Assembly (NCBI GenBank): GCA_002070105.1
Contig: MWCQ01000019.1
Coordinates: forward strand, 1 to 45,603
Length of the DNA: 45,603 nt
Reading direction: 5' to 3'
Origin: Firmicutes bacterium ADurb.Bin193
GTDB lineage: Bacteria > Bacillota > Clostridia > Monoglobales > Firm-18
Below are positions 5,791-39,696 of this stretch, piece after piece. How positions within the stretch are numbered: position 1 is the first letter of the stretch; every line of letters starts with the position of its first letter. Under the pieces are notes generated by a model. The model did not search any database, was not told the origin of the DNA, and saw only the letters and a list, made by a program, of their open reading frames with translations. The translations under genes and the position numbers were made by a program.

Positions 5791-6348
5791 GTGGCAAAGA
5801 GAAATCCACAAGATCTTACAGAAAGCCAAAAGGCGTTTTGTAGAGAATATATTTACGACTGGAATGGGACAAGGGCATACTTAGCAGCATATCCAAATTC
5901 CAGTTATGAAGCAGCCATGTCAAGCGCTTCCGAACTACTAAGAAATCCTAAGATTGAGGCTTATTTGACCGAAATACAGGAAGACCTCGAAAAAATGGCC
6001 GGTATTTCGCGTTTAAAGGTGCTACAGGAGCATCAAAAGCTGGCCTTTAGCTCCATAGCCCACCTTCACAATACGTGGGTTACACGCAAGGAATTTGAAT
6101 CCCTGACTGACGACCAAAAATCCGCCATAGAGGAAATATCCACGCAAATTAAGACTTCACGAAACACAGACGGTACACTTGAGGAAAACGAATACGTCAA
6201 AATCAAACTTTACTCAAAGCAAAAGTCTTTGGATGCCATAAACCGAATGCTCGGGTATGACGCAGCACAAAAAGTTGAAGTGAAAGGCACTGTAAAATCT
6301 TACAACATTGTCCCTGCAAGCCAGCGAAAAGGAAATAGCGGTAAATGA
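5791..6348 (+). CDS. terS: Terminase small subunit
   Basis: 185 residues from GTG 5791. The N-terminus LTESQKAFCREYIYDWNGTR AYLAAYP (shown in two pieces) and SASELLRNPKIEAYL are the helix-turn-helix and second helix of the Terminase_2 family. It recognises phage DNA and loads the large subunit. It overlaps the large-subunit gene by 41 bases and is first in the late operon. Confidence 0.9.
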   Translation: MAKRNPQDLTESQKAFCREYIYDWNGTRAYLAAYPNSSYEAAMSSASELLRNPKIEAYLTEIQEDLEKMAGISRLKVLQEHQKLAFSSIAHLHNTWVTRKEFESLTDDQKSAIEEISTQIKTSRNTDGTLEENEYVKIKLYSKQKSLDAINRMLGYDAAQKVEVKGTVKSYNIVPASQRKGNSGK

Positions 6349-7594
6349 CGTATACATCCCGCTCATTGAGTGCAGAAGCCGAAAACTTGTGCTTTATGGC
6401 GGGTCTGGTAGCGGCAAATCAGTTTTCGCTGCCCATAAAATAGTTTTAAGAACTGTAACCGAACAAGGTCATACTTTCCTGTGCCTCCGCAAGGTGGCCG
6501 AAACAGTCAAAGAATCAATTTTTGCCGAATTAAAGGCGATGATTGAGGAAATGGGCTGTTTTGATGAGTTTAAAATAAACCTCACAGAGAAAACATTCTT
6601 ACACATCCCAACCGGAAACAGAATAATATGTAAGGGTCTTGATGAACCGGAAAAGATAAAGTCCATCAAAGGCATTACCGGGATGTGGATTGAGGAAGCC
6701 ACCGAATTTACAGAAGACGATCTGTTTCAGCTTGATTTGCGTATACGTGGGGAAAAACCTCACTATGTTCAGTACATCTACAGTTTCAATCCAATCTCAG
6801 AGGATAACACAACCGTAAAAAGGTTTATAATCAACAAGGATAAGGAGATTGATTGCACGGTAGTCCATACCACCCACCTCGACAATTACTTTTTATCCGA
6901 TGCTGACCGGAAAATACTTCTAGATTTAAAGGACAAAAACCCTATTTTTTATGACGTTTACTGCCTCGGAATCCCTGGCGTTGTAGACAAATCAAACAAG
7001 TTTCTTTATTCGTTTAATGCAGAAAAGCAGGTAAAAAAAGTAATCTTAGACCGGAATCTTCCTATATGGATAACGTTCGATTTTAACATAGATCCAATGA
7101 CCGTTACCATAGGTCAAAGGCCGCATCTTACAAAACTGATTTGCAAGCAATGTATACAGCTTGACAACTCCGACATATATGCAATGTGCGACAGGATAAG
7201 GGCTGATTACCCGGACTGGAATCTTATCGTTACGGGTGACGCATCAGGACATAACCGAACCGGGGCGGTAAGGGGAAAAACATCTTACTGGCAGGTAATA
7301 AAGTACGAATTGTCGCTAAAAGACCTGCAAATGAAGGTTAGGGGTAACAATATCGGCCTTATCGAATCGCGGGTTTTGTGTAATGCAGTAAATCAGGCCG
7401 TTGAAATTGAATTTGACGAGGAGGGATGCAAACCACTCATAAACGAATGCAAATTCGCACAGGTAGATGATCACGGGGTTTTGATTAAAGACCGGAAAAA
7501 GCAGAAAAACGATTTCTTGGACGGATTCCGGTATCTGGTTGATGCAAACTTCTATGACTTCTTAGGTAAGCAGCATAAGTATGTCAAGGGCTAA
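6308..7594 (+). CDS. terL: Terminase large subunit (Terminase_3/PBSX type)
   Basis: 428 residues from TTG 6308; no ATG exists before the ATPase core, so a rare start is needed. Walker A is GGSGSGKS (31-38), Walker B MWIEE (126-130), and coupling motif SFNP (159-162). The RNase-H-like nuclease has FDFNID (D258), GDASG (D311) and FLDGFRYL (D405), so both motor and nuclease look intact. It packages DNA into the procapsid and cuts the concatemer. Its 3' end overlaps the first glycan gene by 14 bases. Confidence 0.93.
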   Translation: MSLQASEKEIAVNDVYIPLIECRSRKLVLYGGSGSGKSVFAAHKIVLRTVTEQGHTFLCLRKVAETVKESIFAELKAMIEEMGCFDEFKINLTEKTFLHIPTGNRIICKGLDEPEKIKSIKGITGMWIEEATEFTEDDLFQLDLRIRGEKPHYVQYIYSFNPISEDNTTVKRFIINKDKEIDCTVVHTTHLDNYFLSDADRKILLDLKDKNPIFYDVYCLGIPGVVDKSNKFLYSFNAEKQVKKVILDRNLPIWITFDFNIDPMTVTIGQRPHLTKLICKQCIQLDNSDIYAMCDRIRADYPDWNLIVTGDASGHNRTGAVRGKTSYWQVIKYELSLKDLQMKVRGNNIGLIESRVLCNAVNQAVEIEFDEEGCKPLINECKFAQVDDHGVLIKDRKKQKNDFLDGFRYLVDANFYDFLGKQHKYVKG

Positions 7595-8099
7595 TATCAT
7601 AGGCTGCGGCCCCACAGGATCGCTTTGGGACGGACTTGGGTTCAGCGTAGGGGTAAACGACTGCCTTAAGTTTGGAAGGCCTGTAAACGCCCTGGTTTGC
7701 GTTAACGTATTCAGCAAGGAACCGGATAGGCAGCGCATTGTAAATGAAACAAAGACCACGCACGGCTTTTGGTCACACTCCAGGCAATGGCAGCACCGAG
7801 AGGATTTCAAAAAGCTGGATATGCAGCAATGGTCAGGCCGGTATATTCAAGGCCGGGTTTATTGGTCGCATACCTCCACCTTCATCGCAATTACACTTGC
7901 CGTGAAACTTGGCTATACGGAGATAGTCCTGTACGGGTGCGATTTAACCGACCATAAGCACGTAAAAAATAAGGTTCTTGCTGACGAGATAAAAAATACA
8001 TTGGAACTTTCGCGGGAGTTGGAAAAGATTGGGGTGAAATTGTATATTTACAAGGCATACGGGGCTTTTAAGGATCACTTACCGTCAATAACCGAATGA
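7581..8099 (+). CDS. DUF115/sialyltransferase-like (GT-B-type fold) protein
   Basis: 172 residues. ANIIGCGPTGSLWDG near the N-terminus, VGVNDCLKF, and later STFIAITLAVKLGYTEIVLY GCDL (two pieces) match the layout of DUF115 and GT42 sialyltransferase-like proteins: nucleotide-sugar loop, 'N' strand, then '..A...A..LGY.EI.L.G.D'. It is shorter than cellular members. It overlaps terL and is coupled to the next gene (ATGA). It opens the glycan block, so a sugar-transfer or nucleotide-sugar role is likely; the exact reaction is unknown. Confidence 0.6.
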   Translation: MSRANIIGCGPTGSLWDGLGFSVGVNDCLKFGRPVNALVCVNVFSKEPDRQRIVNETKTTHGFWSHSRQWQHREDFKKLDMQQWSGRYIQGRVYWSHTSTFIAITLAVKLGYTEIVLYGCDLTDHKHVKNKVLADEIKNTLELSRELEKIGVKLYIYKAYGAFKDHLPSITE

Positions 8100-8716
8100 A
8101 ATTTACTACAATTACCCCTACACGGGCAGACAGACCAGAGCTTTTAGAGTTCTGCAAATATCAGTTGTCGCGTATGGAGGTAAAGCCAGAACTTTCGTTT
8201 TTTATTGACTTTAAGCCTAAAGATGGAAACATCGACATTGTTTGGCGTGTGTGGGAAGGGCTGCAAAGAGCGTCTGAGGCTGGAATAGACCTTGTTTTCA
8301 TAATTGAGGACGATGATTACTACGACCGAACATACTTCAACCACATACCGGATGCCGACTTCATTGGAGAATCCAATTCGATCTACTACAATCTCCGCAA
8401 CAAGACCTATCAGAATTTTAATCATCTGGGACGATCCAGCCTATTCACTACTGGCTTCAAAATATCCGCACTGAAAGGATTCAGGCCGAAAGAAAACGAC
8501 CGCTTTTTAGACATCAGCCTTTGGAAGTACGCTTTCGATGCGAGTAAAACGGTTGCATTCCGGGAAACCGGGGCGATCGGGATAAAGCACGGTATTGGAT
8601 TGTGTGGCGGTAAAGGTCACAAACTTGTGATGAAGCACAAAGACAGCAATTTAGAGTGGCTATCCGAACAGGTAGATTCGGAGGCTTTTGAATTTTATAA
8701 AAACCTGAAATTATGA
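8096..8716 (+). CDS. GT-A type glycosyltransferase (family 2-like)
   Basis: 206 residues. Starts MKFTTITPTRADRPELLEFC, the 'ITPT.NR...L..C' start of GT2 enzymes, and has FIIEDDDYYD with the DXD metal and nucleotide-sugar motif at 71-74. The rest is a shortened GT-A domain without a membrane segment, so it would be cytoplasmic. It couples by ATGA to both neighbours. Confidence 0.7.
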   Translation: MKFTTITPTRADRPELLEFCKYQLSRMEVKPELSFFIDFKPKDGNIDIVWRVWEGLQRASEAGIDLVFIIEDDDYYDRTYFNHIPDADFIGESNSIYYNLRNKTYQNFNHLGRSSLFTTGFKISALKGFRPKENDRFLDISLWKYAFDASKTVAFRETGAIGIKHGIGLCGGKGHKLVMKHKDSNLEWLSEQVDSEAFEFYKNLKL

Positions 8717-9126
8717 ACACCGACAACCAACTTAACGCACAATTGCAGCAACCTAAAGAGACCGAAAAGATATCTCCTGAGAAACCAATTTCCAGACAGC
8801 AAAGACGCTACCAAGAGCGCGTAAAAGAAGACGCTGTAAACACATTGAATCGCCTTGTAGCGAAGTTCTATGAGGTTTTCATGGAAAATGACCCGGAAGC
8901 CCCGGAAGTAGCCGCCAAAAAGAAAGAAGTGGTTGCTAAATGGAAAATGTACTGCAATCAAAAGCAGCTTTTACCGGCTGCGCTTACACTTTGCGAGGAA
9001 AACTGTGATGCGATCATCAAAAAGTATCAGGAGCAGTTGACGGGAGTAGAGGAGGGTAGCGAGAAATGGCATGAGCAAAAGATTGCCGCTGAAAGAACTG
9101 CCGCAGGAGAAGAATCTGAAGCATGA
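8713..9126 (+). CDS. Helical protein inside the glycan block, unknown
   Basis: 137 residues, mostly helical with charged coiled-coil-like segments (ISRQQRRYQERVKEDAVNTL near 31-50; VAAKKKEVVAKWKMY). No GT motif. Because it is coupled on both sides to glycosyltransferase genes it might be a scaffold, or the protein that receives the glycan, but nothing in the sequence proves this. Confidence 0.65.
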   Translation: MNTDNQLNAQLQQPKETEKISPEKPISRQQRRYQERVKEDAVNTLNRLVAKFYEVFMENDPEAPEVAAKKKEVVAKWKMYCNQKQLLPAALTLCEENCDAIIKKYQEQLTGVEEGSEKWHEQKIAAERTAAGEESEA

Positions 9127-10067
9127 AAATAGCCTTCATCGGTAACTTCGAGGCTGAATTTAGTAGTGAAAACTACTACCTAAAGACCTTTTTAAGCCTA
9201 GGGCATGAGGTTATTAAATTGCAGGAAAGCAAAGCCAGAATAGCCGAAATATGGGCTGTAGCTAAGCATTCAGATATGCTGTTTTGGGTTCATACACACG
9301 GCTGGGAAATTGGCAGGAATCAGGAAATAACCAGAATGCTGAAAGACTTGAAAATGTCGGGCATTCCAACGGTAGGCTTTCATTTGGATTTATGGCTCGG
9401 CCTACAGCGCGAGCGCGACCTAAAATCCGATCCTTATTGGAACATTGAACATTTCTTCACGGTGGACAAGTTAATGGCCGATTACCTAAACAATGAAACC
9501 ACTACAAAAGGCCATTTCCTTCCCGCTGGCGTACCGGAATCTGAGTGCTTTATAGGAACTCCCAACCTTAAAAAATACCCTCATGAAATCATCTTCACAG
9601 GCTCCAAGAATTACCATCCAGAACACAAGTACCGGGGTCAGCTCATTGATTGGCTTCACCGAACTTACGGGGACAGATTTGCGCACTATGGAGGCGGTGG
9701 AAAAGAAACGATCCGGGGAAAAGAACTCAACGACCTTTATGCGAGCGCGAAGATCGTGGTAGGCGATACGCTTTGCAAAAACTTCACCTATCCGTACTAC
9801 GTCAGCGATCGGTTTTTTGAAGTGCCTGGCCGTGGCGGATTTATGATTTTCCCGTACATTACAGGTACAGACCAATGGCTTGAGCCAAACGAAGAAGTTG
9901 TTTTCTATGAATTTGGCGACTTTATAGACCTGAAAAACAAAATCGATCATTACCTGAACGACCACAAGAACCGGGAAGAAATCAGGCTAAAAGGATTTGA
10001 ACGGTGCAAGGCGGAACATACTTACCGGCACAGGATTGAACACGTTTTTAAAACAATATTCGGATGA
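9123..10067 (+). CDS. GT-B glycosyltransferase (CgeB/GT4-like)
   Basis: 314 residues. The N-terminal Rossmann half begins MKIAFIGNFEAEFSSENYY with SLGHEV. The C-terminal half has IIFTGSKNYHPE, then LYASAKIVVGDTL and DRFFEVPGRGGFMIFPYITG (about 229-248), the 'R.FE..G.G.F.I.......' acceptor of CgeB/Glyco_trans_1_2 enzymes. Both Rossmann halves are present, so it should be active on a nucleotide-sugar donor. The acceptor is unknown. Confidence 0.8.
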   Translation: MKIAFIGNFEAEFSSENYYLKTFLSLGHEVIKLQESKARIAEIWAVAKHSDMLFWVHTHGWEIGRNQEITRMLKDLKMSGIPTVGFHLDLWLGLQRERDLKSDPYWNIEHFFTVDKLMADYLNNETTTKGHFLPAGVPESECFIGTPNLKKYPHEIIFTGSKNYHPEHKYRGQLIDWLHRTYGDRFAHYGGGGKETIRGKELNDLYASAKIVVGDTLCKNFTYPYYVSDRFFEVPGRGGFMIFPYITGTDQWLEPNEEVVFYEFGDFIDLKNKIDHYLNDHKNREEIRLKGFERCKAEHTYRHRIEHVFKTIFG

Positions 10068-10888
10068 TAGACGTAATTTGGTATCGTAACTGTCGCGGAA
10101 ATTGGGATCACGGGCTATTGATGTCAATCTTTGAACGTCACCCTGATAAATTCGACCAGTACAACGAATCCGAAATAGTAAATGCTGACATGGCAATCAT
10201 TATCGTTGCCGGAAACCCTGATTATGCGCATTTACGCGACTATCTGAGCGACTTTAAATCCGGCATTGTCATTTTCACCTCAGACGAAGAAGCCCGGTGG
10301 GATATTCCGGCCATAGTACCTCCTCATTTGGAAGTCTGGAGCCAATACTACAAGCCCGGCATGAACGTAAAGGAGCGTTTATTGATGGGCTACCCGAGCA
10401 GATTAAAGGATTACAAAATCAATCTCACTCAGGATAAAAAATACTTATGGTCATTCGTTGGGCAGGTGCAAAATCCGTTCCGGCAGCAGTGCGTTGATAC
10501 GTTGAAGAAGATGCCGGACGGGTTTTTGAGAACGACCGACCTATTTGGCGGGGTGTGTGAAAAGGCGATTGAATACCAGGAGTACCTCGACATTTGCGCA
10601 CAATCAAAGTATGTCATTTGCCCATCCGGCAGTTTCACGGCTGAATCCTTCCGGCTTTACGAGGCTATGGAGTGCGGAGCGATACCTATTGTTGACGCTC
10701 GCAGCCCGGTAAACAGCAAGGATTTCAACTACTGGAATGAAGTCTACCTAAAACACAAACTAATCACCGTGAACTATTGGGATGAAAAGGCATTGAGCGC
10801 AATACTGAACATTCCAAACGATAACAACTGGTGGAATCAATACAAAAAGGAACTTGAGGAAAAACTAATCGCTGTAGCAAATGGCTGA
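10064..10888 (+). CDS. Exostosin-like glycosyltransferase (GT47 type)
   Basis: 274 residues. WSFVGQVQNPFRQQCVD (129-145) and SKYVICPSGSFTAESFRLYE (181-200) followed by AMECGAIPIV (201-210) are the exostosin donor-site signature ('F.G.....R' and '..S.F.LCP.G....S.R..EA...G.IPV'). It has no membrane anchor, unlike eukaryotic exostosins. It overlaps both neighbours. Confidence 0.8.
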   Translation: MIDVIWYRNCRGNWDHGLLMSIFERHPDKFDQYNESEIVNADMAIIIVAGNPDYAHLRDYLSDFKSGIVIFTSDEEARWDIPAIVPPHLEVWSQYYKPGMNVKERLLMGYPSRLKDYKINLTQDKKYLWSFVGQVQNPFRQQCVDTLKKMPDGFLRTTDLFGGVCEKAIEYQEYLDICAQSKYVICPSGSFTAESFRLYEAMECGAIPIVDARSPVNSKDFNYWNEVYLKHKLITVNYWDEKALSAILNIPNDNNWWNQYKKELEEKLIAVANG

Positions 10889-11591
10889 AATGGTAAAATG
10901 CCGCGTTAACGGGCAATACGATATAATTCTACCCAAACACCGGGCCAATCGACCCGAATGGTACACCGAAAAAGGATGGGAAAAGGAGCGGATGCAGAAT
11001 ATGCGCGGGCGCATCGACAAAGGAGATGTTGTCCTGTACGTAGGAAATGAGGAAGGAGACCTATCCGCAATTATAGCCTCTTGGGGTGCTAAAATGATCT
11101 TGGCCGAACCAAATCCAAAAGTTTGGCCGAACACAAAGGTTATTTGGGAGGCGAATAACCTGGAAAACCCGCTTGCTTGCTTTGTTGGCTTCATTTCAAG
11201 CCAATCAACCTACTACAAGAACGATGAATTTGTTCAAAACGGATTCCCAGCATGCGCGGACGGCCCGGTCATTGGCGATCATGGATTCATGGAGCTACGC
11301 AATCACAACGCGCCAGAAATTACTGTTGATGATCTTGTGAAAGAAATCGGACAGGTTCCTGATCACATTTCGATTGACGTAGAAGGATCGGAAGGCTGCG
11401 TTTTGAGGGGTGCTGAAAAGACAATTATTAAGCATAAACCAATAATCTGGCTTTCCGGGCATCCTGAATTTTGTTTTTCCCAGTATGGAGAGTATCTAAC
11501 AGATATAAGAAACTGGATAAAAGACCGGGGCTACAGCGAGACGCTTTTAGACTACTCCCATGAGTGCCATTTTATGTACCTGCCGAAATGA
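10881..11591 (+). CDS. FkbM-type SAM-dependent methyltransferase
   Basis: 236 residues. A SAM-binding loop DVVLYVGNEEGD (49-60) is followed by the acidic EP pair at 76-77, and HISIDVEGSEGCVLRGAE (162-179) is the FkbM hallmark ('.ID.EG.E..VL.G'). FkbM enzymes O-methylate sugars or polyketides. Within a run of glycosyltransferases it most likely caps or decorates the glycan. It overlaps the next start (ATGA at 11588). Confidence 0.8.
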   Translation: MAEMVKCRVNGQYDIILPKHRANRPEWYTEKGWEKERMQNMRGRIDKGDVVLYVGNEEGDLSAIIASWGAKMILAEPNPKVWPNTKVIWEANNLENPLACFVGFISSQSTYYKNDEFVQNGFPACADGPVIGDHGFMELRNHNAPEITVDDLVKEIGQVPDHISIDVEGSEGCVLRGAEKTIIKHKPIIWLSGHPEFCFSQYGEYLTDIRNWIKDRGYSETLLDYSHECHFMYLPK

Positions 11592-12295
11592 TCACGACTT
11601 TAATCCCCACCAGCCCAATCCCATCGCATCCAAGCACAGCAATTTTGGATGAAACAATTTCCAACATCAGGCGGTATACGGACGACCTGATTATCATCAT
11701 GGCTGACGGTGTGCATCCAAGCCTGAAACACCGCAAAGAGGCATACACGGAATACCTGAACCAACTTCCGGACAGGTACAAAAATACCGCAGTTTGGCAA
11801 TTTGGAGGCCATCAGCACCAGGCGCGAATGACCCGCGCTGTGCTGGAAACGATCACGGATGATATTATCATGTTCTGCGAGCATGACGCGAGTCCTATAG
11901 GTGACATTCCTTTTCAGGAAATATGCGACCTCGTGCGGGATAGTGAAGAAATCAATTACGTTCGGTTTAATATCTTCGAACAGATCCCAAAAGAACACGG
12001 GTATTTGATGCTCGGAGCAGAAACCCACAATGAAATACCATTGCAGCGCACAATACAGTGGTCACAACGCCCGCACATCGCTAAAAAGGCCTGGTATCAG
12101 GATATTCTGAATATGCACTTCGGCAAAGAGGACAGAACAATGATTGAGGACGTAATGCACTCGGTTGTGCAGGTGGAGTACGACAAAAAAGGACGGGACA
12201 CGTTTGGACTGGCTATTTACACCCCGGAAGGCAACCAATTACGCAGCTTTCACTCAGATGGCAGGGGTAAGGATGAAAAAATAATCACAGGATGA
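11588..12295 (+). CDS. GT-A type glycosyltransferase-like protein
   Basis: 235 residues from ATG 11588; a frame start at 11564 is rejected because the ATGA overlap fits the pattern of the block. MITTLIPTSPIPSHP is a GT2-like start, DDLIIIMADG gives the second strand, and DIIMFCEHDASPI (92-104) holds an EHD in the DXD position. The remainder resembles GT-A domains that lack membrane segments. Confidence 0.65.
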   Translation: MITTLIPTSPIPSHPSTAILDETISNIRRYTDDLIIIMADGVHPSLKHRKEAYTEYLNQLPDRYKNTAVWQFGGHQHQARMTRAVLETITDDIIMFCEHDASPIGDIPFQEICDLVRDSEEINYVRFNIFEQIPKEHGYLMLGAETHNEIPLQRTIQWSQRPHIAKKAWYQDILNMHFGKEDRTMIEDVMHSVVQVEYDKKGRDTFGLAIYTPEGNQLRSFHSDGRGKDEKIITG

Positions 12296-13314
12296 GAATA
12301 GGGCTGATAGCGCGAATGGACAATACAGGCCTCGGCATACAGTCGAAGGAGTTCTTTGATCACATCCCATGTAAAGTTCTGGCTATCGATTCAATCGCAT
12401 TAGGAAACTCCCCGGTTTTGAATTGCTACCCCGACCGCTTCCCCGGGGCGACCATTCACAAGCTGCGGAAAGGCGAACATATACCCGAAAGCCTGATTCA
12501 GTCGTTCATCAAAGATATTGACGTACTTTTCTGCATGGAAACGCCTTACAATTACCGGTTTTTCAGTGCATGCCGGGAGAAACGAAAGAAAACAATACTG
12601 CAATTCAACTACGAGTTTTTAGAATACCCAAACAACGTACTTCCGACACCGGATTTGTTTGCCGCTCCAAGCAAATGGCATTATGACGATGTTCCGCGTA
12701 ACAAAGTATTTCTACCCGTTCCGGTAAATACCCACAAATTCAATCCAAAGCAGGAATTACGGACTTTTGTTCATGTAGCAGGCCGACCAGCTATACACGA
12801 CAGGAACGGCACTCAGACGCTTTTAAATGCCCTACAGCACGTTACTGAGAAAGTGACTGTAATCATCCGGGCTACACAAAGAATGAGCGTCAGAAGCCCA
12901 AGAAGCAACGTTAAACTGGTCGTTGACGACAGCTACCGGCACAACTATTGGGAAGCCTACACTGGCGGGGTGTTGCCCGTGATCATGCCGCGCAAGTATG
13001 GCGGTCTGTGCCTGCCGATAAACGAGGCGTTAGGCGCTGAAATGCCAGTGATTGCCCCGGATATTTCACCTAATAACCTGTGGTTGCCTAAAGAATGGCT
13101 TACCCCGGCCAAAGAATCAATCAAACTACAGGCGCGGAAGACGGTTGACGTTTACGAACCGGATGCCCGATCGCTGGCCGCTAAGATTGACCAGTTTTGC
13201 GATGAAGGATTTTACCTGAATGCCGTTGATAAGGCCAGGGGATTGAAGGAATCAATTTCATGGGATAGTTTATTGCCGTTGTACCACCAAACATTTGAAA
13301 AACTATGCTCGTAG
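12292..13314 (+). CDS. GT4-family glycosyltransferase
   Basis: 340 residues. The GT-B fold begins MRIGLIARMDNTGLGIQSKE (open receptor loop 'TGLG.Q'). The C-terminal domain has FVHVAGRPAIHDRNG (159-173) and GGLCLPINEALGAEMPVIAP (237-256), the E-x7-E-like donor signature of GT4 ('G.G....EA...G.PV'). It is the largest enzyme of the block and very likely active. Confidence 0.85.
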   Translation: MRIGLIARMDNTGLGIQSKEFFDHIPCKVLAIDSIALGNSPVLNCYPDRFPGATIHKLRKGEHIPESLIQSFIKDIDVLFCMETPYNYRFFSACREKRKKTILQFNYEFLEYPNNVLPTPDLFAAPSKWHYDDVPRNKVFLPVPVNTHKFNPKQELRTFVHVAGRPAIHDRNGTQTLLNALQHVTEKVTVIIRATQRMSVRSPRSNVKLVVDDSYRHNYWEAYTGGVLPVIMPRKYGGLCLPINEALGAEMPVIAPDISPNNLWLPKEWLTPAKESIKLQARKTVDVYEPDARSLAAKIDQFCDEGFYLNAVDKARGLKESISWDSLLPLYHQTFEKLCS

Positions 13315-14042
13315 CCATTTATAACGCCTGGGATCATGAGCTTTTACGTCAGTCTGTGGATAACATCCTGAAAGCTGTGGATAAAGTGATCATTGTTTAT
13401 TCGAACCACTCCAACAAAGGCGAAAAATTACGGTTTCCAGTGGAACAGTTTGCTGATTGCTCACTCATCCAGCATGAACCGGATTTAGGATTGATCCCGC
13501 ACAAGAACGAGCAGAACAAAAGAAATGCCGGGCTAAGATTCGCGCAGGAAATAGGGGCTAATTACTTCATTATGCTCGATGGTGATGAATTTTATCAGCC
13601 CGAAGATGTTAGATTCTGGTATGAATACTTGCGGCACAGCAGCCTATCAGGACTTGTATGCAGGTCGCACGTTTATTTTGGCAAGCCTACCCTGACCATC
13701 GGAGAGGACACCACCTACGTGCCATTCATTCATAAAATTGTACCGGGATTGAAGTTTGTTTTCACTCAGGACTATCCCTACACAAGGCACGAAGGAAAAT
13801 TGAGGATTGACCCTACCCGGAGGCTGAACATTACGGCCAACGTTCGCCTGATAGGCTGCATAATGCACCATTATAGCTACTTGCGGAAAGACATTGACCA
13901 AAAGATTAACAACAGTTCGGCAGAAAGCCTGAAAAAGGTGGCCGATGTAATCAAAAACGACCTTAAAAATGCCGAAAAAGGCTATTTTTGCCAGTACTAC
14001 GGTAAAGAATTGATCGAAGCACCAAACCTGTTTAACTTATGA
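13305..14042 (+). CDS. GT2-type glycosyltransferase
   Basis: 245 residues. The start MLVAIYNAWDHELLRQSVDN ILK (two pieces) is a typical GT2 opening, then NKRNAGLRFAQEIGANYFIM and LDGDEFYQP with the DXD at 92-94. It overlaps the previous gene by 10 bases and the following membrane-protein gene by four. It is the last clear enzyme of the glycan block. Confidence 0.8.
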   Translation: MLVAIYNAWDHELLRQSVDNILKAVDKVIIVYSNHSNKGEKLRFPVEQFADCSLIQHEPDLGLIPHKNEQNKRNAGLRFAQEIGANYFIMLDGDEFYQPEDVRFWYEYLRHSSLSGLVCRSHVYFGKPTLTIGEDTTYVPFIHKIVPGLKFVFTQDYPYTRHEGKLRIDPTRRLNITANVRLIGCIMHHYSYLRKDIDQKINNSSAESLKKVADVIKNDLKNAEKGYFCQYYGKELIEAPNLFNL

Positions 14043-14329
14043 CATACGCGCTTATTGTTACCCTGTTTGCATCGTTCTGGTGCTACGGTATTGCCACACT
14101 TTTCAAAGAGGAAATGATACTCGAAAAGGTCGGTATCTGGATGGATGAGAATTTGAATGAGTACCTGAATAAGCCGCTTTGGAAATGCCCGCTTTGCATG
14201 GCATCCATTCACGGCACGGCCATTTACGCAATCTTCATGATGCCACTGTACGGTATTTTGTTTTGGGTTCCGTTCTGCGTGTGCCTGTGCGGATTGAATT
14301 ACATTTTAATGCAGTTATTCAATGACTAG
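14039..14329 (+). CDS. Small membrane protein with CPLC motif
   Basis: 96 residues with an N-terminal membrane helix (TYALIVTLFASFWCYGIATL) and a hydrophobic C-terminal hairpin (AIYAIFMMPLYGILFWVPFC then VCLCGLNYILM). Between them is KPLWKCPLCMASIHG, a CxxC motif that I recall from small phage membrane proteins. It links the glycan block to the tail genes and could be a membrane anchor for the enzymes; this is inference. Confidence 0.6.
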   Translation: MTYALIVTLFASFWCYGIATLFKEEMILEKVGIWMDENLNEYLNKPLWKCPLCMASIHGTAIYAIFMMPLYGILFWVPFCVCLCGLNYILMQLFND

Positions 14330-14900
14330 GAAAGTAAAAAGCGACAAGGTGCGCAATATGTACCACCCGGATTATGTGGGTAAGACTGAATTTGCATTTG
14401 AGGCCAACGGCAAGAAGTACTACAACTTCCGGAAAGATACCGATATGCGCTATGGCCGGTATGTAGTGATGCAGACGTTCCTACAGGAATACTACCTCAG
14501 AATCGACCTTGCGACACTGAAAGGCGACATTCAAAAGCTTAAAAACTGGCTTAATCCACCGGCAAAAGAGGGCAGAATTGAATTAGGTAAGTCCCTGGAA
14601 TTGCTTTCGATAATGGAACAGCGTTCAAACATTGCCTTTGAGCCTGATACCGTTTACCGGCTTGCCTCATCCCTGTATTTTGATGATCAGGAGATACTCA
14701 CGGATTATGATCAAAAACACAACGAAAAGAAAATCGCTGCTTGGAAGGAGGCCAAGACTACGGATTTTTTTTTCAACAAACTATTTCAAGATGTAACGGG
14801 CTTGATGGTTACATCCAAAGACGCTTTGATAAGTTATTTGGAAAAGGCTCCGGAGTTAACAAAAGGCTGGCGTACCATGAGCGACATCCTAACGCGGTAA
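14322..14900 (+). CDS. Probable tail assembly chaperone, large partner
   Basis: 192 residues, mostly alpha/beta with a helical C-terminus (FNKLFQDVTGLMVTSKDALI). Position is the main evidence: it lies just before the tape measure gene and is followed by a short frame overlapping at TAATG, the layout of gpG/gpGT-type chaperones that hold the tape measure during tail assembly. A run of nine T at 14765-14773 lies inside it. No sequence-level family match is claimed. Confidence 0.55.
   Translation: MTRKVKSDKVRNMYHPDYVGKTEFAFEANGKKYYNFRKDTDMRYGRYVVMQTFLQEYYLRIDLATLKGDIQKLKNWLNPPAKEGRIELGKSLELLSIMEQRSNIAFEPDTVYRLASSLYFDDQEILTDYDQKHNEKKIAAWKEAKTTDFFFNKLFQDVTGLMVTSKDALISYLEKAPELTKGWRTMSDILTR
14765..14773 (+). 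other. T9 run, possible -1 frameshift site
   Basis: The zero frame reads GAT TTT TTT TTC, so 14765-14771 is a perfect T TTT TTT slippery heptamer. A -1 slip enters the frame that stays open to 15049, the end of the next small gene. The zero frame downstream of the slip looks like real protein and the -1 frame between here and 14900 does not, so reinitiation at 14900 is the simpler model. Confidence 0.35.
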
Positions 14901-15049
14901 TGCAGGATTTTCTTGATAGCCGGTACGAAGAAGTGAAAATATTGGCTAACTTTGATATTGAGAAGGAAAAAGCCTTCTACGAGATGTCTGTTTACGACTT
15001 CTACTTTCACCTATGGGTAAAGTCAAACAATCGTGGCGAAAATCATTAA
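14900..15049 (+). CDS. Small partner of the tail chaperone
   Basis: 49 residues from ATG 14900, which shares its first base with the upstream stop (TAATG). Sequence MQDFLDSRYEEVKILANF then AFYEMSVYDFYFHLWVKSNN. A short helical protein with 'MS.YDFY..L' just before the tape measure is what one expects for the T-domain partner of tail chaperones. It overlaps the tape measure start by 17 bases. It may instead be made only as a -1 frameshift extension of the upstream gene. Confidence 0.55.
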   Translation: MQDFLDSRYEEVKILANFDIEKEKAFYEMSVYDFYFHLWVKSNNRGENH

Positions 15050-21824: not shown

Positions 21825-23603
21825 ATGGAAGAAGAATACTTTGATGAAGCGTTCCTGAAAAGGCTGAAGCAGCTTATTTCAGATGACAAAAACGAAGAAA
21901 AGCATCCTTATTACAAGGCTGCTACCGAGCATTACGAAGAAATGTCATGGCACGTCTACGGCACAAAGCCGGAGAGGTTGCTGGAGCGCGTTCGTCCGAG
22001 GGAAGATGAAGCCATAAAACAGTACCGGCTCGATTCTTATGAGCCAATCACTAAATCGGTGTGCAAAAAGGCTCTGTCCATTGCACACAAGATATTCAAT
22101 TCAAAACTGTACTCTATCCGGTTCGATGAAAATGAGAAATCACAACTTCTCAAAAAGTACTCGCTGGAGGATTACCCAAGGTTCAATTCGGTAGTTAACT
22201 ACCTGGCCAATTTCAGCCTTAAAAAGAACATCGCAGATCCTAACGGGGTTTTTCTGGTTCAGCCGAATGATTACATGATCCGGGAAAGCCAGCGCGTAGA
22301 ACCAATTGTAACATGCTACGGCTCTAAGGACATTTGGGACATTGGGAAAGGCGAAAATGAGTACTTCCTGTTCTTTGACGAAGGGGGAGATAAACAATGG
22401 TACTTTACTCACGTTGATAAACTATCGATCAATAAACTACTGGTAACAAAAGGCAGGCAGGGTGAGGTATTGGTAGAAATACTGGCTACTTACAATCATG
22501 CTTTTGGAGAAATTCCGGTATGGTATCTTGGTGGCGAGTATTCAGACAAGAACTACGGCTTGTACGAATCATTTTTTTCGCCCGCCATACCGTTTTGGAA
22601 CGAAGCCATCAACGACCATTCAGACGTTACCGGAGCTTACCGCATGCACATCTGGCCTCAAAAATGGGAGGTTGCTGATGAGTGCGATTATGTGGAGGAC
22701 AACAAATACCCATGTAGCGGAGGATGGATTTATCACGCAGAATCGGGAGAGAAGCACAAATGCCCATCCTGTAAAGGGGCTGGCAGAAAGACGATTAAAA
22801 GCCCGTACGAATCATATCTTGTCAACCGTGACAAGTTCACCGGCACGGACGGAACTGCGACTGTAGACGTTCCTTTTGGCTATGTGGCCGTCCCTGTTGA
22901 CGCTACCAAGATGCTGGAGGACAAGGCGAACAGAAACCTTGAAATGGGACTGAATGCGCTTGCTATGGACGTAGTGAATAAAATCGGTGAAAATCAATCC
23001 GGGATAAGCAAAGAAATTGACCGTACCGAATTGCACGACTTCTTGCAGAAACTGGCTGATCAATTCTTCGATGTCCACCTGACCAATATTTACTACTACT
23101 TCACCAAATATATGTTTGGGGTAACAGACCCGAAAAACATTGAAAGTATTCAGCCTGAAATCAGCAAGCCGACACAGTTTAACGTATATTCGTTTACTGA
23201 ATTGACAGGACAATTTGCGGCAGCAAAGGATGCTGGGCTAAGCGCATCGTATTTGAGCGTAAAACAGGCAGAGATTCAAGGCAAGGAGTTCCAAACCCAT
23301 CCGCATTTATTGACGGTGCTGGATATGGAGCTTGTTTTAGACCCGCTTTCCGGGGCATCGCGCGATGATGTGGCATTGATGCTGCAAAACGGCACTGTGA
23401 CAAAAGAAACAGTTATCATACACGATAACATCAAGATATTCGTACGCAGAGCATTGGAGGAAACAAAGAACTTTGAAAACCTTACGCTGACCGAGAAGAT
23501 GGCCGTTTTAGAAGGCTATGCAGCCGAGGTTTTAGAAAAAACAAAGGTGCAAATTGACATGAGTGCTTTTGCGCCACAGAATCAGCAAGAACCGGTAATT
23601 TAA
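21825..23603 (+). CDS. Portal protein with inserted zinc ribbon
   Basis: 592 residues, usual size for a portal. The central part (KSVCKKALSIAHKIFNSKLY, then MLEDKANRNLEMGLNALAMD) fits phage portal proteins: N-terminal helices, wing, stem and C-terminal crown helices. Unusually, C287, C297, C313 and C316 (the last two in CPSCKGAGR) form a likely zinc ribbon in the middle. It would form the dodecameric channel for packaging. Follows the tail-tube terminator by about 12 bases. Confidence 0.75.
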   Translation: MEEEYFDEAFLKRLKQLISDDKNEEKHPYYKAATEHYEEMSWHVYGTKPERLLERVRPREDEAIKQYRLDSYEPITKSVCKKALSIAHKIFNSKLYSIRFDENEKSQLLKKYSLEDYPRFNSVVNYLANFSLKKNIADPNGVFLVQPNDYMIRESQRVEPIVTCYGSKDIWDIGKGENEYFLFFDEGGDKQWYFTHVDKLSINKLLVTKGRQGEVLVEILATYNHAFGEIPVWYLGGEYSDKNYGLYESFFSPAIPFWNEAINDHSDVTGAYRMHIWPQKWEVADECDYVEDNKYPCSGGWIYHAESGEKHKCPSCKGAGRKTIKSPYESYLVNRDKFTGTDGTATVDVPFGYVAVPVDATKMLEDKANRNLEMGLNALAMDVVNKIGENQSGISKEIDRTELHDFLQKLADQFFDVHLTNIYYYFTKYMFGVTDPKNIESIQPEISKPTQFNVYSFTELTGQFAAAKDAGLSASYLSVKQAEIQGKEFQTHPHLLTVLDMELVLDPLSGASRDDVALMLQNGTVTKETVIIHDNIKIFVRRALEETKNFENLTLTEKMAVLEGYAAEVLEKTKVQIDMSAFAPQNQQEPVI

Positions 23604-24068: not shown

Positions 24069-24842
24069 ATGGCTATCACAACACTTGACGGGGCATTAGC
24101 CGGAATGCAATGGCCTCGCTACATTGCTAAGAACGTAACCGGCACAATGGTGGGCGGAAGGCCTTGGAGTTTGTGGGCTTTAGGCGGGAATCCTGGGGCT
24201 GGATCATTTGATAACACGCTTGCGGGTGTTGCCTTAACCGCACCGGTAAACGGCCAGATACCATTTACAAACCCGGTTTCTGGTAACACATACCTTGCGA
24301 GGCTTCAGGCTGCCGCATCGCAGGCCGGAACGCTTTTGCTTTGCGATCGTCTTTGGCATAATGGTGGTTTTACAATCACATCAAACACCGCTCAAACTGT
24401 AAACTCCGCAACATGGCCCGCAAGGGATGCTGATGGCGCAACGGATGGTAACGGTGTTATTTTAGGCCTTGAAATATCTGCTTCCGCAGGTGCGGCAGCT
24501 CCAACAATTACCGTTTCCTATACAAATCAGGGCGGAACAGCATCAAGAACTGCAACTGTAGTATCTGAAAACGTAACGGTATTCCCACAGGCCGGTAATC
24601 TGACGTTAACAGGGGTTGCTCCTGCTTTTGAGCAGAGCGTTTTGGTAACCCCTGAAACCACATCGCTGATACTTTCCGGGAATAGACCAGACCCTATTGG
24701 TGTTGGGTATTATCGTGACAATATTGTAAACGCAACTGTTTCGCTAGTCGGGGAGTATGACGTTTCAGAAACACTAACAAGATCCTCTGAGTACATTGTA
24801 TCTTCAACCATTGTAAGGCCTACTGAAAACATCATACAATGA
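24069..24842 (+). CDS. Structural virion protein
   Basis: 257 residues, rich in Gly, Ala, Thr and Val; ITTLDGALAGMQWPRYIAKN then GTMVGGRPWSLWALGGNPGA resembles phage virion proteins with the 'GL.AGM.PP...G..V.GRP.SL' start. It is two bases after the previous gene and overlaps the Mu-F-like gene by four bases. Confidence 0.65.
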   Translation: MAITTLDGALAGMQWPRYIAKNVTGTMVGGRPWSLWALGGNPGAGSFDNTLAGVALTAPVNGQIPFTNPVSGNTYLARLQAAASQAGTLLLCDRLWHNGGFTITSNTAQTVNSATWPARDADGATDGNGVILGLEISASAGAAAPTITVSYTNQGGTASRTATVVSENVTVFPQAGNLTLTGVAPAFEQSVLVTPETTSLILSGNRPDPIGVGYYRDNIVNATVSLVGEYDVSETLTRSSEYIVSSTIVRPTENIIQ

Positions 24843-26874: not shown

Positions 26875-27204
26875 ATGGCAGAAACAGAGTATGTACGGGT
26901 GGAGCTGATAAGCAATCCTTCCGTAAAGCGAACAATGAGCAAGAACTCGCTCAGGGTTAATTCAAACAAATGGCGTGAGGTTGGCGCGGAACAGGTAGAA
27001 AAGAAAGATCTACCAAAAAACGTGGTTGCCGAAGTTGCGGGCGAAAATCCTACTGAGCCAGTAAAAACACAGGTTCAGCAAGTTGATCCTGAATTGGCTG
27101 CACTTCGGACAGAATACGAGGCAAAAACCGGTAAACCGGCAGACAAGAGAATGAAAGCGGACAAACTTAAAGCCAAATTAGATGAAATTAACGGAGTGGC
27201 TTAA
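26875..27204 (+). CDS. Small head-region protein with SAP/HeH-like C-terminus
   Basis: 109 residues. The C-terminal part LAALRTEYEAKTGKPADKRM KADKLKAKLDE (two pieces) resembles the small helix-extended-helix or SAP-like domain often found in short phage head proteins. It overlaps the scaffold gene by 23 bases and is the first rightward gene after the antisense island. Possibly a head fibre or assembly factor. Confidence 0.55.
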   Translation: MAETEYVRVELISNPSVKRTMSKNSLRVNSNKWREVGAEQVEKKDLPKNVVAEVAGENPTEPVKTQVQQVDPELAALRTEYEAKTGKPADKRMKADKLKAKLDEINGVA

Positions 27205-28051
27205 AACAATCCTGGTTTCCGTAGTTGAGAAGCCAGAGGATGCAGATTTGTTCCTTTCAGCAAGCGACCTGAAAGCTGTAGAAGTGCCTGACGACATTCA
27301 GAAAGCGTTCAATGAGCGTTACCTGACCCGCGACCGGGCAATGTCGGATGAAAAGATTATCCGGGAACTTGACAAGAAGGCCAAAGGCCAGATTTTGGAC
27401 ATGGTTGACGCAAGGGTGAAGAAGATTGTTCCGCTACTTTCAGAGGAAGATCAGAAATTGCTCGCGCTGGAATCCAGTTCTTTGAATAAGTTGGAAATTT
27501 TGGCAAATGCCATACCCAACCTGAGCAAAAACGATGATGTAAAGAAAGCATCTGAGGTTTTCCGGAAGAAGGAAGCCGACCTTCATGAAAAAATTTCATT
27601 GCTGGAAGATCAAATCAAGAAAAAAGATGCTAATTTTGATAAGCAAATCAAGGACGTAAAACTTGATTATGTGTTGCGTACAAAGGTGGCTGGATTTGAT
27701 TTAGCTCCTGAGTTCAGCGATGAAGAACACAGAAATTTTTTAGCTGACAGTACAATACATTTTTTGAAGTCAAACTACAAAGTAGAGTTTGACGATAAAG
27801 ATGAACGAGTTCTGCACCTTCGCAAGGAGGTAGACGGAGCTATCACAGATGTTTACGAGGGTAACAATATCAAAGTAACCCTAGACGATGTCCTGAAAAA
27901 AAGGTATGAGAAGTTCCTGAAAAAGAGTTCAGGCAGCGGATCAGAGCAGGGCAAACCCAATCCGGAACCACGTAAAAGACAGGAATTACCGACAGACAAG
28001 CCTCTTACATTGAGAGAAAGAATGGCTGCCGCGCAATCTGCTAAAGCGTAA
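27182..28051 (+). CDS. Probable capsid scaffolding protein
   Basis: 289 residues, highly charged. A coiled coil at about 120-160 (VFRKKEADLHEKISLLEDQI) and a disordered Pro/Lys/Ser-rich tail ending LTLRERMAAAQSAKA are typical of scaffolding proteins. It is directly upstream of the major capsid gene, the usual position. No protease motif is seen. Confidence 0.65.
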   Translation: MKLTEWLKTILVSVVEKPEDADLFLSASDLKAVEVPDDIQKAFNERYLTRDRAMSDEKIIRELDKKAKGQILDMVDARVKKIVPLLSEEDQKLLALESSSLNKLEILANAIPNLSKNDDVKKASEVFRKKEADLHEKISLLEDQIKKKDANFDKQIKDVKLDYVLRTKVAGFDLAPEFSDEEHRNFLADSTIHFLKSNYKVEFDDKDERVLHLRKEVDGAITDVYEGNNIKVTLDDVLKKRYEKFLKKSSGSGSEQGKPNPEPRKRQELPTDKPLTLRERMAAAQSAKA

Positions 28052-28070
28052 CCGGAAACACGCTTTTTTA
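28043..28070 (+). terminator. Intrinsic terminator or attenuator before the capsid gene
   Basis: AAAGCGT at 28043-28049 pairs with ACGCTTT at 28060-28066 around a ten-base loop and is followed by more T. It straddles the scaffold stop codon. It may lower read-through or protect the 3' end of the scaffold mRNA. Confidence 0.5.
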
Positions 28071-28084
28071 TCATTTAAATTTTA

Positions 28085-29170
28085 ATGGCAACACCTTATA
28101 TTGACTTACCAGGAGCTTGTGAGAAGATCCTGCGTAACATGCAAGACATCGCAAAAGGCAACTATCCATTTGCAATGGGCCGGGCAACCGGTATGCTGGA
28201 TGCGCTTTTAGACCCTAGCAACGGATCAATCAATCTCGTTGGCGCGCAGGGCGGTAAGAAATTCGTTAAAGGCCGCGTGGCGTACAAAGTGCGCGCAAAG
28301 TCTTGCGAGATTCTTGAAGATGGCGCAGTACCAAGCGTCTGTAACGATGGCACGGAGCCGCTTCCTTTGGAAGTAGAGGTAACACTCGACAAGCACATTT
28401 CAACTCCTACGCTGACATTCACCAATGACAACATGGTGAACATTTGCCAGGATACACAGGCTTTCGTGAACGAATACCTGCTTTCATATCAGAAAGCACT
28501 TCGCGAGCGTCTGGATGAAATCATGCTTGCAAAAGCTGACGACAAAATCGGCGTGACCCGTCACCAGGACGGCAGCGCAGATACCGCAATTGGCGGCTAC
28601 AAGGACAAGCAACTTTTGGCAACAAACTCAGGCGTTACGACTCCTTTGTTTGCGAATTTCTCTGACATTAAGTTGGACTACCAGTACAATCAATTGTCAG
28701 GAATCCCGCGCATGGTGGGAAATGGAACGCTTCAAAAGTTCATGGAATTGGCCGGTTACTCATGCTGCAACGCGTCAGGCGTAGCGTATGACAGCGCGAT
28801 CGCAACAACCGGGGCGGCTTTCTACGTGGATGATGCCGCAAGCACCATTCTTGGAGCAAACCGTTTCCTTGTGTTCGCACCAAACCTGCTGCACCTGTTG
28901 AGCTGGAACAAAAATGCAAACATCGCAATCAACACTGAATTGCGCAGACGCATTGTAATTCCTGATGCTGTTTACCCTGGCCTGAACTGGGATTTGGATT
29001 TTGAATTTACCTGCGATGATACCTGGAATTTCAAACTTTCAGGATGGTTCGGGTTGTTCAGCGCAATACAAGCCGATTCTTTCGGAAACGAGGATAACAC
29101 CTCACCGGTTTGCGAGGATGAACTGGTAGGATTTACCGGTGTAATGGGTTACAGAGCAACATCTGCTTAA
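28085..29170 (+). CDS. Major capsid protein
   Basis: 361 residues. Identified by position after the scaffold, size, and composition: mixed alpha/beta, long E-loop-like N-terminal segment (GAQGGKKFVKGRVAYKVRAK), and a C-terminal region with balanced strands (LNWDLDFEFTCDDTWNFKLS). No protease cleavage site could be judged. Likely an HK97-fold protein; fold is inferred, not shown. Confidence 0.7.
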   Translation: MATPYIDLPGACEKILRNMQDIAKGNYPFAMGRATGMLDALLDPSNGSINLVGAQGGKKFVKGRVAYKVRAKSCEILEDGAVPSVCNDGTEPLPLEVEVTLDKHISTPTLTFTNDNMVNICQDTQAFVNEYLLSYQKALRERLDEIMLAKADDKIGVTRHQDGSADTAIGGYKDKQLLATNSGVTTPLFANFSDIKLDYQYNQLSGIPRMVGNGTLQKFMELAGYSCCNASGVAYDSAIATTGAAFYVDDAASTILGANRFLVFAPNLLHLLSWNKNANIAINTELRRRIVIPDAVYPGLNWDLDFEFTCDDTWNFKLSGWFGLFSAIQADSFGNEDNTSPVCEDELVGFTGVMGYRATSA

Positions 29171-37809: not shown

Positions 37810-38100
37810 TTAATAAATCTGTGTTTTACCTTCGTATGTTCGCGTTCTCGTCTTTTCAGCCATATCTCGGTAGCTAATTTCAATCGCTACATGCTTAATT
37901 GCTAACTCTCGCTTGGCCATTGCAATGTCGAAATGTTCCCGAGGGGAGTCGAATGACTGAATCCACTTTCTCTGGACACCTATTTTATCAACCATCGCCA
38001 ACAACTCCTCGCGGGTATCGGCAATCAGGTGGCTCATTTTCATCCTGCCATATTGCCCGATTGGATGCTTATAAATATCATCAACGTACACCGCCATCAC
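37810..38100 (-). CDS. DUF4031 family protein
   Basis: 96 residues. VYVDDIYKHPIGQYGRMKMS HLIAD (two pieces), EELLAMVDKIGVQRKWIQ and HFDIAMAKRELAIKHVAIE match DUF4031, a small family found widely in phage and bacterial genomes with a conserved D/H pattern of unknown activity. It overlaps the upstream gene by four bases (ATGA-type coupling). Confidence 0.8.
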   Translation of the reverse strand: MMAVYVDDIYKHPIGQYGRMKMSHLIADTREELLAMVDKIGVQRKWIQSFDSPREHFDIAMAKRELAIKHVAIEISYRDMAEKTRTRTYEGKTQIY

Positions 38101-39056
38101 TGTTTGTTTTTAAGCTGCCGGATTTCCTCCTGAAGTGCTGCGATCTTCAATTCAAGTTTTGTTATGTATCTGTCTTTTTGCTCAACAAAATCTTTTGAAA
38201 AATGAGGTTCGCTTGACTCTTTCTGCATCTTTTCAAAATCGGGCTTCTCTTTACTGGCAGGGGTGTATTTATTCAACATTTCTTCTTTTGCCTTTTCGTA
38301 CATAACCTTACCGTCTTCGTCCTCTGAGAAGAACCATTTTGTGTATCTCATACCATCAGGTGTAGAGAGCCATTTTTTAAATTCTTCTGCGTTGTAATGG
38401 ATATTCTCTTTACTGGCAGGGGTTTCGTATCGATTGTTCCAGATTCCAATTGTTTTATCCCTTCTGTCCTCTCTGATCATACAGTGGCAGTTTGGGCAAC
38501 GAAGCGCATAATGTCCGTCACTGATAGCCTCACCATACCATTCCGGCTGAGTTCCGCAAAATGGACACGGCTTAATATTGCTTTGGGTTTCCCCTTTACT
38601 GGCAGGGGTTTCCTCTTTTTTTCCACCGAGCGCAGCAAAGTATTCCTCTACAGTCGGGCCGCTAATTCCACTTTCTTCAACTTGCTTCACCATCTTGTCC
38701 AATTCTTCATCTGGCATTGAATCAAGAAACTTTTGAAACCTGTCTACTTGTTCTTTTACCCAATCTTTATTGGTTTCCTCTTTGGGGGATGCGAACGATA
38801 GGATGGCGACAAACTCATGTTCAGTAGCCTTCCATCCTTTGTGAAGATTTCTTCTAACCTTTTCAGCAATCGCAATCATGCGGGCTTTAAACTGCATAGC
38901 CTTACTTGGATCGCTTGTTAATTCTCCGGATTCCATAAGCCACAGTTGTGTTTCTTCCTGTTCAATAAACCAAACATACCCTTCACGACCGCAAAAGTCC
39001 TTATTCATGTGATCAAGTGAATCACTATCTTCTCTGCTGTAATATGCTGTTTCCAT
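38097..39056 (-). CDS. Lar-like restriction-alleviation domain fused in a modular early protein
   Basis: 319 residues in modules joined by repeated PASK linkers (151-154, 213-216, 266-269). Module 1 (about 25-65) resembles the protein at 39439-39696. Between the first two linkers lies a Lar-type zinc ribbon: KPCPFCGTQPEWYG (162-175) and LRCPNCHCMI (185-194), then GIWNNR (204-209), the usual end of this family. Lar of prophage Rac alleviates type I restriction. The C-terminal 50 residues form a coiled coil. The other modules are unrecognised. Confidence 0.7.
   Translation of the reverse strand: METAYYSREDSDSLDHMNKDFCGREGYVWFIEQEETQLWLMESGELTSDPSKAMQFKARMIAIAEKVRRNLHKGWKATEHEFVAILSFASPKEETNKDWVKEQVDRFQKFLDSMPDEELDKMVKQVEESGISGPTVEEYFAALGGKKEETPASKGETQSNIKPCPFCGTQPEWYGEAISDGHYALRCPNCHCMIREDRRDKTIGIWNNRYETPASKENIHYNAEEFKKWLSTPDGMRYTKWFFSEDEDGKVMYEKAKEEMLNKYTPASKEKPDFEKMQKESSEPHFSKDFVEQKDRYITKLELKIAALQEEIRQLKNKQ
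38249..38264 (-). repeat. PASK linker repeat, copy 1
   Basis: One of three copies of a 16-base sequence (CTTTACTGGCAGGGGT, plus strand) inside the modular gene 38097-39056. Each encodes the linker TPASK, which separates domains. The others are at 38408-38423 and 38594-38609. Confidence 0.75.
38408..38423 (-). repeat. PASK linker repeat, copy 2
   Basis: Second exact copy of the 16-base linker sequence. It lies at the end of the Lar zinc-ribbon module. Confidence 0.75.
38594..38609 (-). repeat. PASK linker repeat, copy 3
   Basis: Third exact copy of the 16-base linker sequence. It lies just before the Lar zinc-ribbon module, so copies 2 and 3 bracket that domain exactly. Confidence 0.75.
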
Positions 39057-39438: not shown

Positions 39439-39696
39439 TTAAAAGTCAAAAAGATGTTCTGTTATTTCGCACTCTGGAAATGGCGATTCTTTGTACCAAA
39501 GTTCTTCATCGCGTTCAGACCACAAGTCAGGATTAGTCTCTTGTTCTATATGTTTTTGAGCCAACTCTTTTGATTTAAAGAATTTTGCTTTCAACGGATC
39601 ATTTGTCCATTTCCCTGAGCCTGCGTACCATTGCCGTGTATCAATCCTTTCAATGAAGTACAAAAGACCATCACGATTGTTTACTGCTACTTCCAT
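39439..39696 (-). CDS. Small early protein sharing a module with the Lar-like protein
   Basis: 85 residues. LLYFIERIDTRQWYAGSGKW TNDPLKAKFFKS (two pieces, about 11-42) aligns with residues 28-57 of the 319-aa neighbour (VWFIEQEETQLWLMESGELT SDPSKAMQFK): a shared '.FIE...T..W...SG..T.DP.KA..F' pattern. The two genes are therefore paralogous in this part. Role unknown. Confidence 0.65.
   Translation of the reverse strand: MEVAVNNRDGLLYFIERIDTRQWYAGSGKWTNDPLKAKFFKSKELAQKHIEQETNPDLWSERDEELWYKESPFPECEITEHLFDF

Follow-up and report, generated by a model that had tools for sequence, protein, structure and literature searches.

Glycosylation of virions by phage-encoded enzymes has been established for a few mycobacteriophages, as described in PMC12363180, PMC11256854 and PMC12619734. 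Citing Freeman et al. 2023, PMC12363180 gives Che8 gp110 and Corndog gp38 as essential for capsid glycosylation, and PMC12619734 places the glycans on the C-termini of the capsid and tail tube subunits. The Che8 operon itself encodes, with 4-base overlaps between genes, a fusion of a GT2 glycosyltransferase (GT) with a methyltransferase (gp108, GT2-TylF), a GT2-like enzyme and a GT25-like enzyme. Here we describe a gene block in contig MWCQ01000019.1 of the Firmicutes bacterium ADurb.Bin193 assembly (GCA_002070105.1), which was analyzed over its entire 45,603 nucleotides (hereafter, the window). The block, at 7581-14042, lies between terL, the terminase large subunit gene, and a set of tail genes, and consists of nine open reading frames (ORFs): seven GT genes, an FkbM methyltransferase gene and a gene for a small helical protein. 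We regard it as a likely phage-encoded operon for glycosylating and methylating a virion protein, the best reading being a widespread, exchangeable variant of virion glycosylation that is new relative to the known mycobacteriophage systems.

Like the Che8 operon, the block combines soluble GTs with a methyltransferase in a short, overlapping phage operon. In contrast to Che8, where three GT genes stand at the end of the genome, seven GTs and an FkbM enzyme are encoded within the structural operon of the window, the interior of its block is exchangeable between fixed border genes, and the modification is inferred from genes. The GTs of the window are not detectably homologous to those of Che8, and profiles of the window GTs yielded no significant homologue of Che8 gp108-110. 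Even so, the mycobacteriophage comparison is more apt than the one with capsid-glycosylating algal viruses that had been offered in the initial annotation, made from this sequence alone.

All nine ORFs of that annotation are present where it had placed them, and its count of seven GTs and one methyltransferase describes them fairly, as judged by Pfam, PHROG and, for two of the proteins, AlphaFold models. From terL to the gene at 14322, successive overlaps measure 14, 4, 4, 4, 4, 8, 4, 4, 10, 4 and 8 bases, assuming that the seventh gene of the block starts at ATG 11588 instead of GTG 11564, a start that agrees with the homologues in two related loci, L011 and L141; the claimed joining of genes by 4-14 base overlaps from terL to the tail genes is borne out across every junction of the block. 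As also claimed, none of the nine genes encodes a membrane segment (the highest Kyte-Doolittle 19-mer value is 1.46), and no terminator-like site was found on the + strand inside the block. The block had further been placed under the late promoter, but a search for such a promoter identified none, promoter-like matches being no more numerous than in shuffled sequence, and this assignment is unsupported. Homologues of these proteins occur elsewhere in conserved synteny, so the ORFs of the block are not chance readings.

Among the conserved genes are those for the CgeB-like, FkbM, RXYLT1-like, GTA2 and GT4 proteins (GTA1 and GTA2 being two GT-A glycosyltransferases of the block), which sequence comparison identifies as a recurrent five-gene operon, the core cassette. 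Searches of IMG/VR yielded 162 relatives with GT4 and nine with CgeB; after removal of repeated contigs, 81 GT4-carrying loci were left. The loci were found through the sequence of one or two cassette genes, the counts cover those with a detectable GT4, and all are fragments, such that a missing TerL or CgeB on a short contig carries little meaning. CgeB lies upstream of GT4 in all 57 loci where it was found. TerL was recognized in 25 loci and in each of them follows GT4 at a distance of 0.4-7.3 kb. Of the 76 loci newly retrieved, 52 have an FkbM gene close to GT4. Both an RXYLT1-like and a GTA2 gene are found in 55 loci, and in 27 of these they form a single fused protein. The GT4 loci span 31 to 69% guanine-plus-cytosine (GC) content. 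The cassette of the myophage L011 (tail sheath phrog_165, 2e-88) keeps the order of the window and immediately precedes the sheath gene, and in L141, from another lineage, it precedes terL and the portal gene, with identities to the window of 60% for CgeB, 51% for the RXYLT1-like protein, 39% for FkbM, 56% for GTA2, 49% for GT4 and 41% for GT2. The CgeB-like protein is 47-60% identical to homologues of unrelated phages. The comparison of related genomes that had been proposed as a check thus found the cassette recurrent and conserved in order. Its recurrence beside packaging or structural genes in many otherwise unrelated uncultured viruses makes it probable that these viruses provide their own particles with a coat of sugars that can be exchanged.

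A connection to Che8 comes from relatives of the cassette. In a prophage of Nocardia sp. CDC159 (L046), the gene order is major tail protein (phrog_792, 8e-100, directly before the cassette), CgeB, RXYLT1-GTA2 fusion, GT4, and a GT that is 42% identical (2e-47) to Che8 gp110. A gp110 homologue also lies beside GT4, immediately after it, in 12 more loci, all of 59-68% GC, bringing to 13 the relatives in which the window's core cassette is joined to this enzyme; in one of the 12, L144, a major tail protein gene is located just upstream of the cassette. The enzyme family of Che8 gp110 is hereby linked to a conserved operon of much greater size, present in at least 81 phage loci, and the named enzymes and loci provide material for studying how a sugar coat is assembled by phages and made diverse. 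As a separate observation, the cassette-side major tail proteins of L046 (8940-9869, 309 amino acids) and L144 (6753-7598, about 281 amino acids) end before the C-terminal portion of phrog_792, and the Nocardia genome has another phrog_792 copy that matches almost to the end of the profile. The C-terminus is the reported location of the mycobacteriophage glycans.

In the virion glycosylation scheme, the soluble GTs would be produced late, together with the terL and tail gene products, and, acting in the cytoplasm on host nucleotide sugars, would assemble a short oligosaccharide step by step on a virion protein of high abundance, the candidate acceptors being the major capsid and tail tube proteins. 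The FkbM enzyme would O-methylate one of the sugars, and two successive steps are probably catalyzed by the RXYLT1-like enzyme and GTA2. With the interior cassette swapped and the borders kept, related phages should differ in their glycans, and the coat might shield particles from receptors, antibodies or particle-degrading enzymes, or alter adsorption. Such a protective role, with its bearing on antibodies, adsorption and phage stability, thereby becomes open to study.

Of the initial prediction, the soluble multi-enzyme operon with its methyltransferase inside the structural operon is borne out, and the proposed methylated oligosaccharide on a virion protein gains comparative support from the gp110 homologue in relatives and from the major tail protein gene directly upstream in two of them. 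Several points weigh on the other side. The evidence for a modified virion protein is comparative and indirect, and no homologue of Che8 gp110 is encoded in the block of the window, the link being one of operon partnership in relatives. In many relatives the cassette precedes terS/terL, a position for which late expression is presumed, and TerL was found in just 25 of the 81 loci, partly reflecting short contigs and the diversity of TerL. Finally, GTA1 and GTA2 share their GT-A fold with TarS, TarP and RmlT, soluble GTs that decorate wall teichoic acid and thus act on host polymers. Together with a Bacillota/Clostridia-like 16S sequence in the bin, judged by eye, this resemblance speaks for the main rival explanation, namely, that the enzymes glycosylate and methylate a host envelope polymer (for example, teichoic acid) late in infection, blocking adsorption of released virions or competitors to the lysing cell. 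We nonetheless consider modification of the host surface unlikely: the phages with the core cassette, a Nocardia prophage among them, range from 31 to 69% GC and have hosts with very different envelopes; the cassette is associated with genes for packaging and virion proteins and with the Che8 gp110 homologue; the block shows no membrane GT, flippase or lipid-linked initiating enzyme; and a long late operon would be a costly form of superinfection exclusion.

Virion glycosylation also has to be set against other targets for the sugars. The block GT families are presumably unlike known DNA GTs, and the block lies among structural genes, not replication genes, which makes it highly improbable that its GTs add sugars to a modified base of the phage genome. 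Phage GTs that glucosylate DNA are known (reviewed in PMC12619734), and the window encodes DNA methyltransferases, but no hydroxymethylase or modified-base synthesis gene appeared among the larger early ORFs scanned, several of which match no family, and we agree with the low rank that DNA glucosylation had been given from the outset. Cassettes of relatives hold extra genes for S-adenosylmethionine (SAM) synthetase (MetK), Fic-domain and radical SAM proteins (L013, 12044-13045; L020, 11591-12220; L011, 7806-8612; L141, 3728-4486), pointing to further virion or glycan modifications. These additions, along with the promiscuity of the GT and FkbM families and the tendency of gene cargo to gather near phage terminase genes, would also suit a small glycoside or another non-virion target, such as a lipid or host protein, with the position of the block reflecting recombination hot spots near terL. 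That explanation appears quite improbable given the strict gene order, the gene fusion and the association with virion genes at varied sites (before the sheath gene, after the tail tube gene, before or after terL), unlike a single hot spot.

The cassette is not a host gene set, a possibility that we considered and rejected. The window was sorted into the same bin as a 2.63-Mb bacterial genome, which may differ from the true host of the phage. Among 398 genomes of the phylum, GTA2 was detected in the window's own bin and as one marginal match (E 9.9e-4), and CgeB was absent from 50 genomes of the bin's order, so that the cassette belongs to the phage, not the host. A search of the phylum with GT4 gave weak generic GT4 matches only. 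Searches of genome contigs found no GT4, and for CgeB only the Nocardia prophage. Among 50,697 phage records, no relative of the GT4, GTA2 or RXYLT1-like protein was detectable, and relatives of CgeB in cultured phages are distant and confined to Streptomyces phages. In this group (Dryad, Wentworth, PHTowN and their relatives), a GT and a hypothetical protein or nucleotidyltransferase follow the tail genes, and Dryad also has a methyltransferase. The likeness to the window consists in the CgeB-like GT (26-28% identical, profile E 1.7e-50) and, in Dryad, in the methyltransferase two genes past it, adjoining the tail genes; in contrast, relatives of the other three cassette GTs were found in no cultured phage record searched. 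A literature search, largely limited to papers outside subscription, found none joining CgeB, phage and glycosyltransferase.

Within the lineage of the window, the block occupies an exchangeable slot. The order terL-DUF115-GTA1, with the homologue of the gene at 7581 directly after terL, is retained in L003, L060, L061, L062, L071, L074 and L082; the tail chaperone gene closes the slot in L003, L071 and L082, and the other four show the left border only. TerL is 72% identical to that of the window in L003 and 36-39% identical over the aligned part in the other slot relatives. The interior is the core cassette in the window; two GT-like genes and a fusion of RmlD with a C-methyltransferase in L003; a third type with several GTs in L060, L061, L071, L074 and L082, to which the longer contigs add FkbM and a second methyltransferase-like gene; and a fourth type in L062. 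At the right border, the GT2 gene at 13305 and the small membrane protein gene at 14039 recur in L071 and L082; in L003, the small membrane protein is encoded to the left of the slot interior. Because unrelated phages share the same interior and related phages have different ones, these comparisons show that glycan cassettes are exchanged between phages while the border genes stay fixed. GTA1 alone was tried as a terL-linked gene and rejected, TerL being found (phrog_2 search) in 18 of 50 GTA1 records, often 9 kb away; the linkage to terL is limited to the DUF115-GTA1 pair in this lineage.

Bacterial capsule and O-antigen loci offer an analogy to the slot, in which fixed border genes likewise flank a set of GT and sugar-modification genes that can be exchanged. 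Unlike these loci, the slot of the window lies in a phage late operon and has no polymerase, flippase or export gene, and its product would be expected on a protein instead of a lipid or the cell surface. Tentatively, and with somewhat less than even confidence, we propose that a "glycotype" locus is present in many tailed phages, as a fixed slot within or next to the late operon where swapped glycan cassettes yield differing methylated coats, with CgeB-FkbM-RXYLT1-GTA2-GT4 as one module moving between siphophages and myophages of unrelated hosts. If true, related virions would bear different sugar coats, much as capsule loci give rise to bacterial serotypes.

Table 1. Genes of the glycan block and of its borders in the window. 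KD19, Kyte-Doolittle 19-mer maximum; pLDDT, predicted local distance difference test.
Positions	Strand	Feature	Supporting evidence
6308-7594	+	Terminase large subunit, left neighbor of block	phrog_3717 E 1.1e-62; 72% identical to L003
7581-8099	+	DUF115/GT42-like protein, left border of glycan slot	Weak PF01973 match, 0.0058
8096-8716	+	GTA1, predicted GT-A glycosyltransferase, left border of slot	AlphaFold pLDDT 94
8713-9126	+	Charged helical protein, 137 amino acids	No Pfam or PHROG match of note
9123-10067	+	CgeB-like GT-B glycosyltransferase, first core-cassette gene	PF13524 (Glyco_trans_1_2) 6.6e-24
10064-10888	+	RXYLT1/exostosin-like glycosyltransferase	RXYLT1_C PF24785 4.8e-11
10881-11591	+	FkbM-type methyltransferase	PF05050 3.5e-13
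11588-12295	+	GTA2, predicted GT-A glycosyltransferase	AlphaFold pLDDT 84.5; ORF listed from GTG 11564, ATG 11588 preferred
12292-13314	+	Putative GT4-type GT-B glycosyltransferase, core-cassette hallmark	phrog_2170 3.3e-6
13305-14042	+	GT2 glycosyltransferase, last cassette gene	PF00535 1.2e-5
14039-14329	+	Small membrane protein, CPxCMASIHG motif, right border	KD19 2.12; conserved in L003, L071, L082
14322-14900	+	Putative tail assembly chaperone, right border	57% identical in L003; tape measure gene starts at 15033

Pfam membership of the individual enzymes (Table 1) was judged by the score relative to the gathering threshold of each family. By this measure, the CgeB-like protein belongs to PF13524 (84.9 bits against a threshold of 25; it also matches PHROG glycosyltransferases at 2e-37), the RXYLT1-like protein to PF24785 (42.9 against 27), the FkbM enzyme to PF05050 (50.5 against 22.7), and the GT2 enzyme, which has homologues at the equivalent position in L011, L141, L071 and L082, to PF00535 (25.8 against 23.3). 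Matches below threshold are those of the RXYLT1-like protein to Exostosin_GT47 (PF03016, 3.7e-6; 26.9 bits against 33.4) and of the GT4 protein to Glyco_trans_1_4 (13.7 against 27); the latter protein conserves an LPxxEAL motif, and its profile matches D-inositol-3-phosphate GT (3e-4). The gene at 7581 had been called DUF115/GT42-like, and a match to the DUF115/MptE-like family is indeed seen, although it is weak, with 16.9 bits against a threshold of 34.6 over 43 residues; its match to a PHROG sialyltransferase has an E-value of 0.011. For the 137-residue protein, a role as scaffold or acceptor had been suggested and finds no support, a single distant homologue having been found (L106, E 2e-7).

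GTA1 and GTA2, the two GTs of the block that match nothing in Pfam or PHROG, are, on the evidence of their confident structural models, GT-A enzymes that retain acidic metal-binding motifs and C-terminal histidines. The best PDB matches of the GTA1 model are all GT-A enzymes (WrtF, Z 14.9, root-mean-square deviation 2.7, 154 residues aligned), and E71, D73, D74, H165 and H175 are invariant across 36 sequences of the family. With 414 relatives in IMG/VR, in uncultured phages, GTA1 newly supplies a phage GT-A family of over 400 members for which Pfam and PHROG have no model. The GTA2 model matches B4GALNT1 (Z 15.6) and GalNAc-T2 (Z 14.0), as well as nucleotidyltransferases of related fold (Z about 13.5), and its conserved residues are E106-x-D108 and H230. 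Sequence searches of the PDB with GTA2 and CgeB found nothing significant.

The window is the whole contig and bears an exact 75-base direct terminal repeat at its ends, from which we conclude that the phage genome is probably complete and circular, with a size of about 45.5 kb. No similarity to cultured phages was found at the DNA level. The gene order over 5791-29170 is unusual, running from terminase through the glycan block, tail chaperone, tape measure and tail genes to the portal gene at 21825, with candidate capsid genes following at about 27182-29170; the order is the same in the L003 contig (portal 53% identical). Candidate virion proteins of the window are those encoded at 24069-24842, 27182-28051 and 28085-29170. 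At the right border of the block, the ORFs at 14322-14900 and 14741-15049 overlap in frames offset by -1, each about 57% identical in L003, and probably form a tail chaperone pair produced by -1 programmed frameshifting; a search for relatives of the chaperone found none except on the L003 contig. Elsewhere in the window, the gene at 38097-39056 encodes a protein with a Lar-like restriction alleviation domain, and a shorter ORF at 39439-39696 has a 40-residue stretch in common with it.

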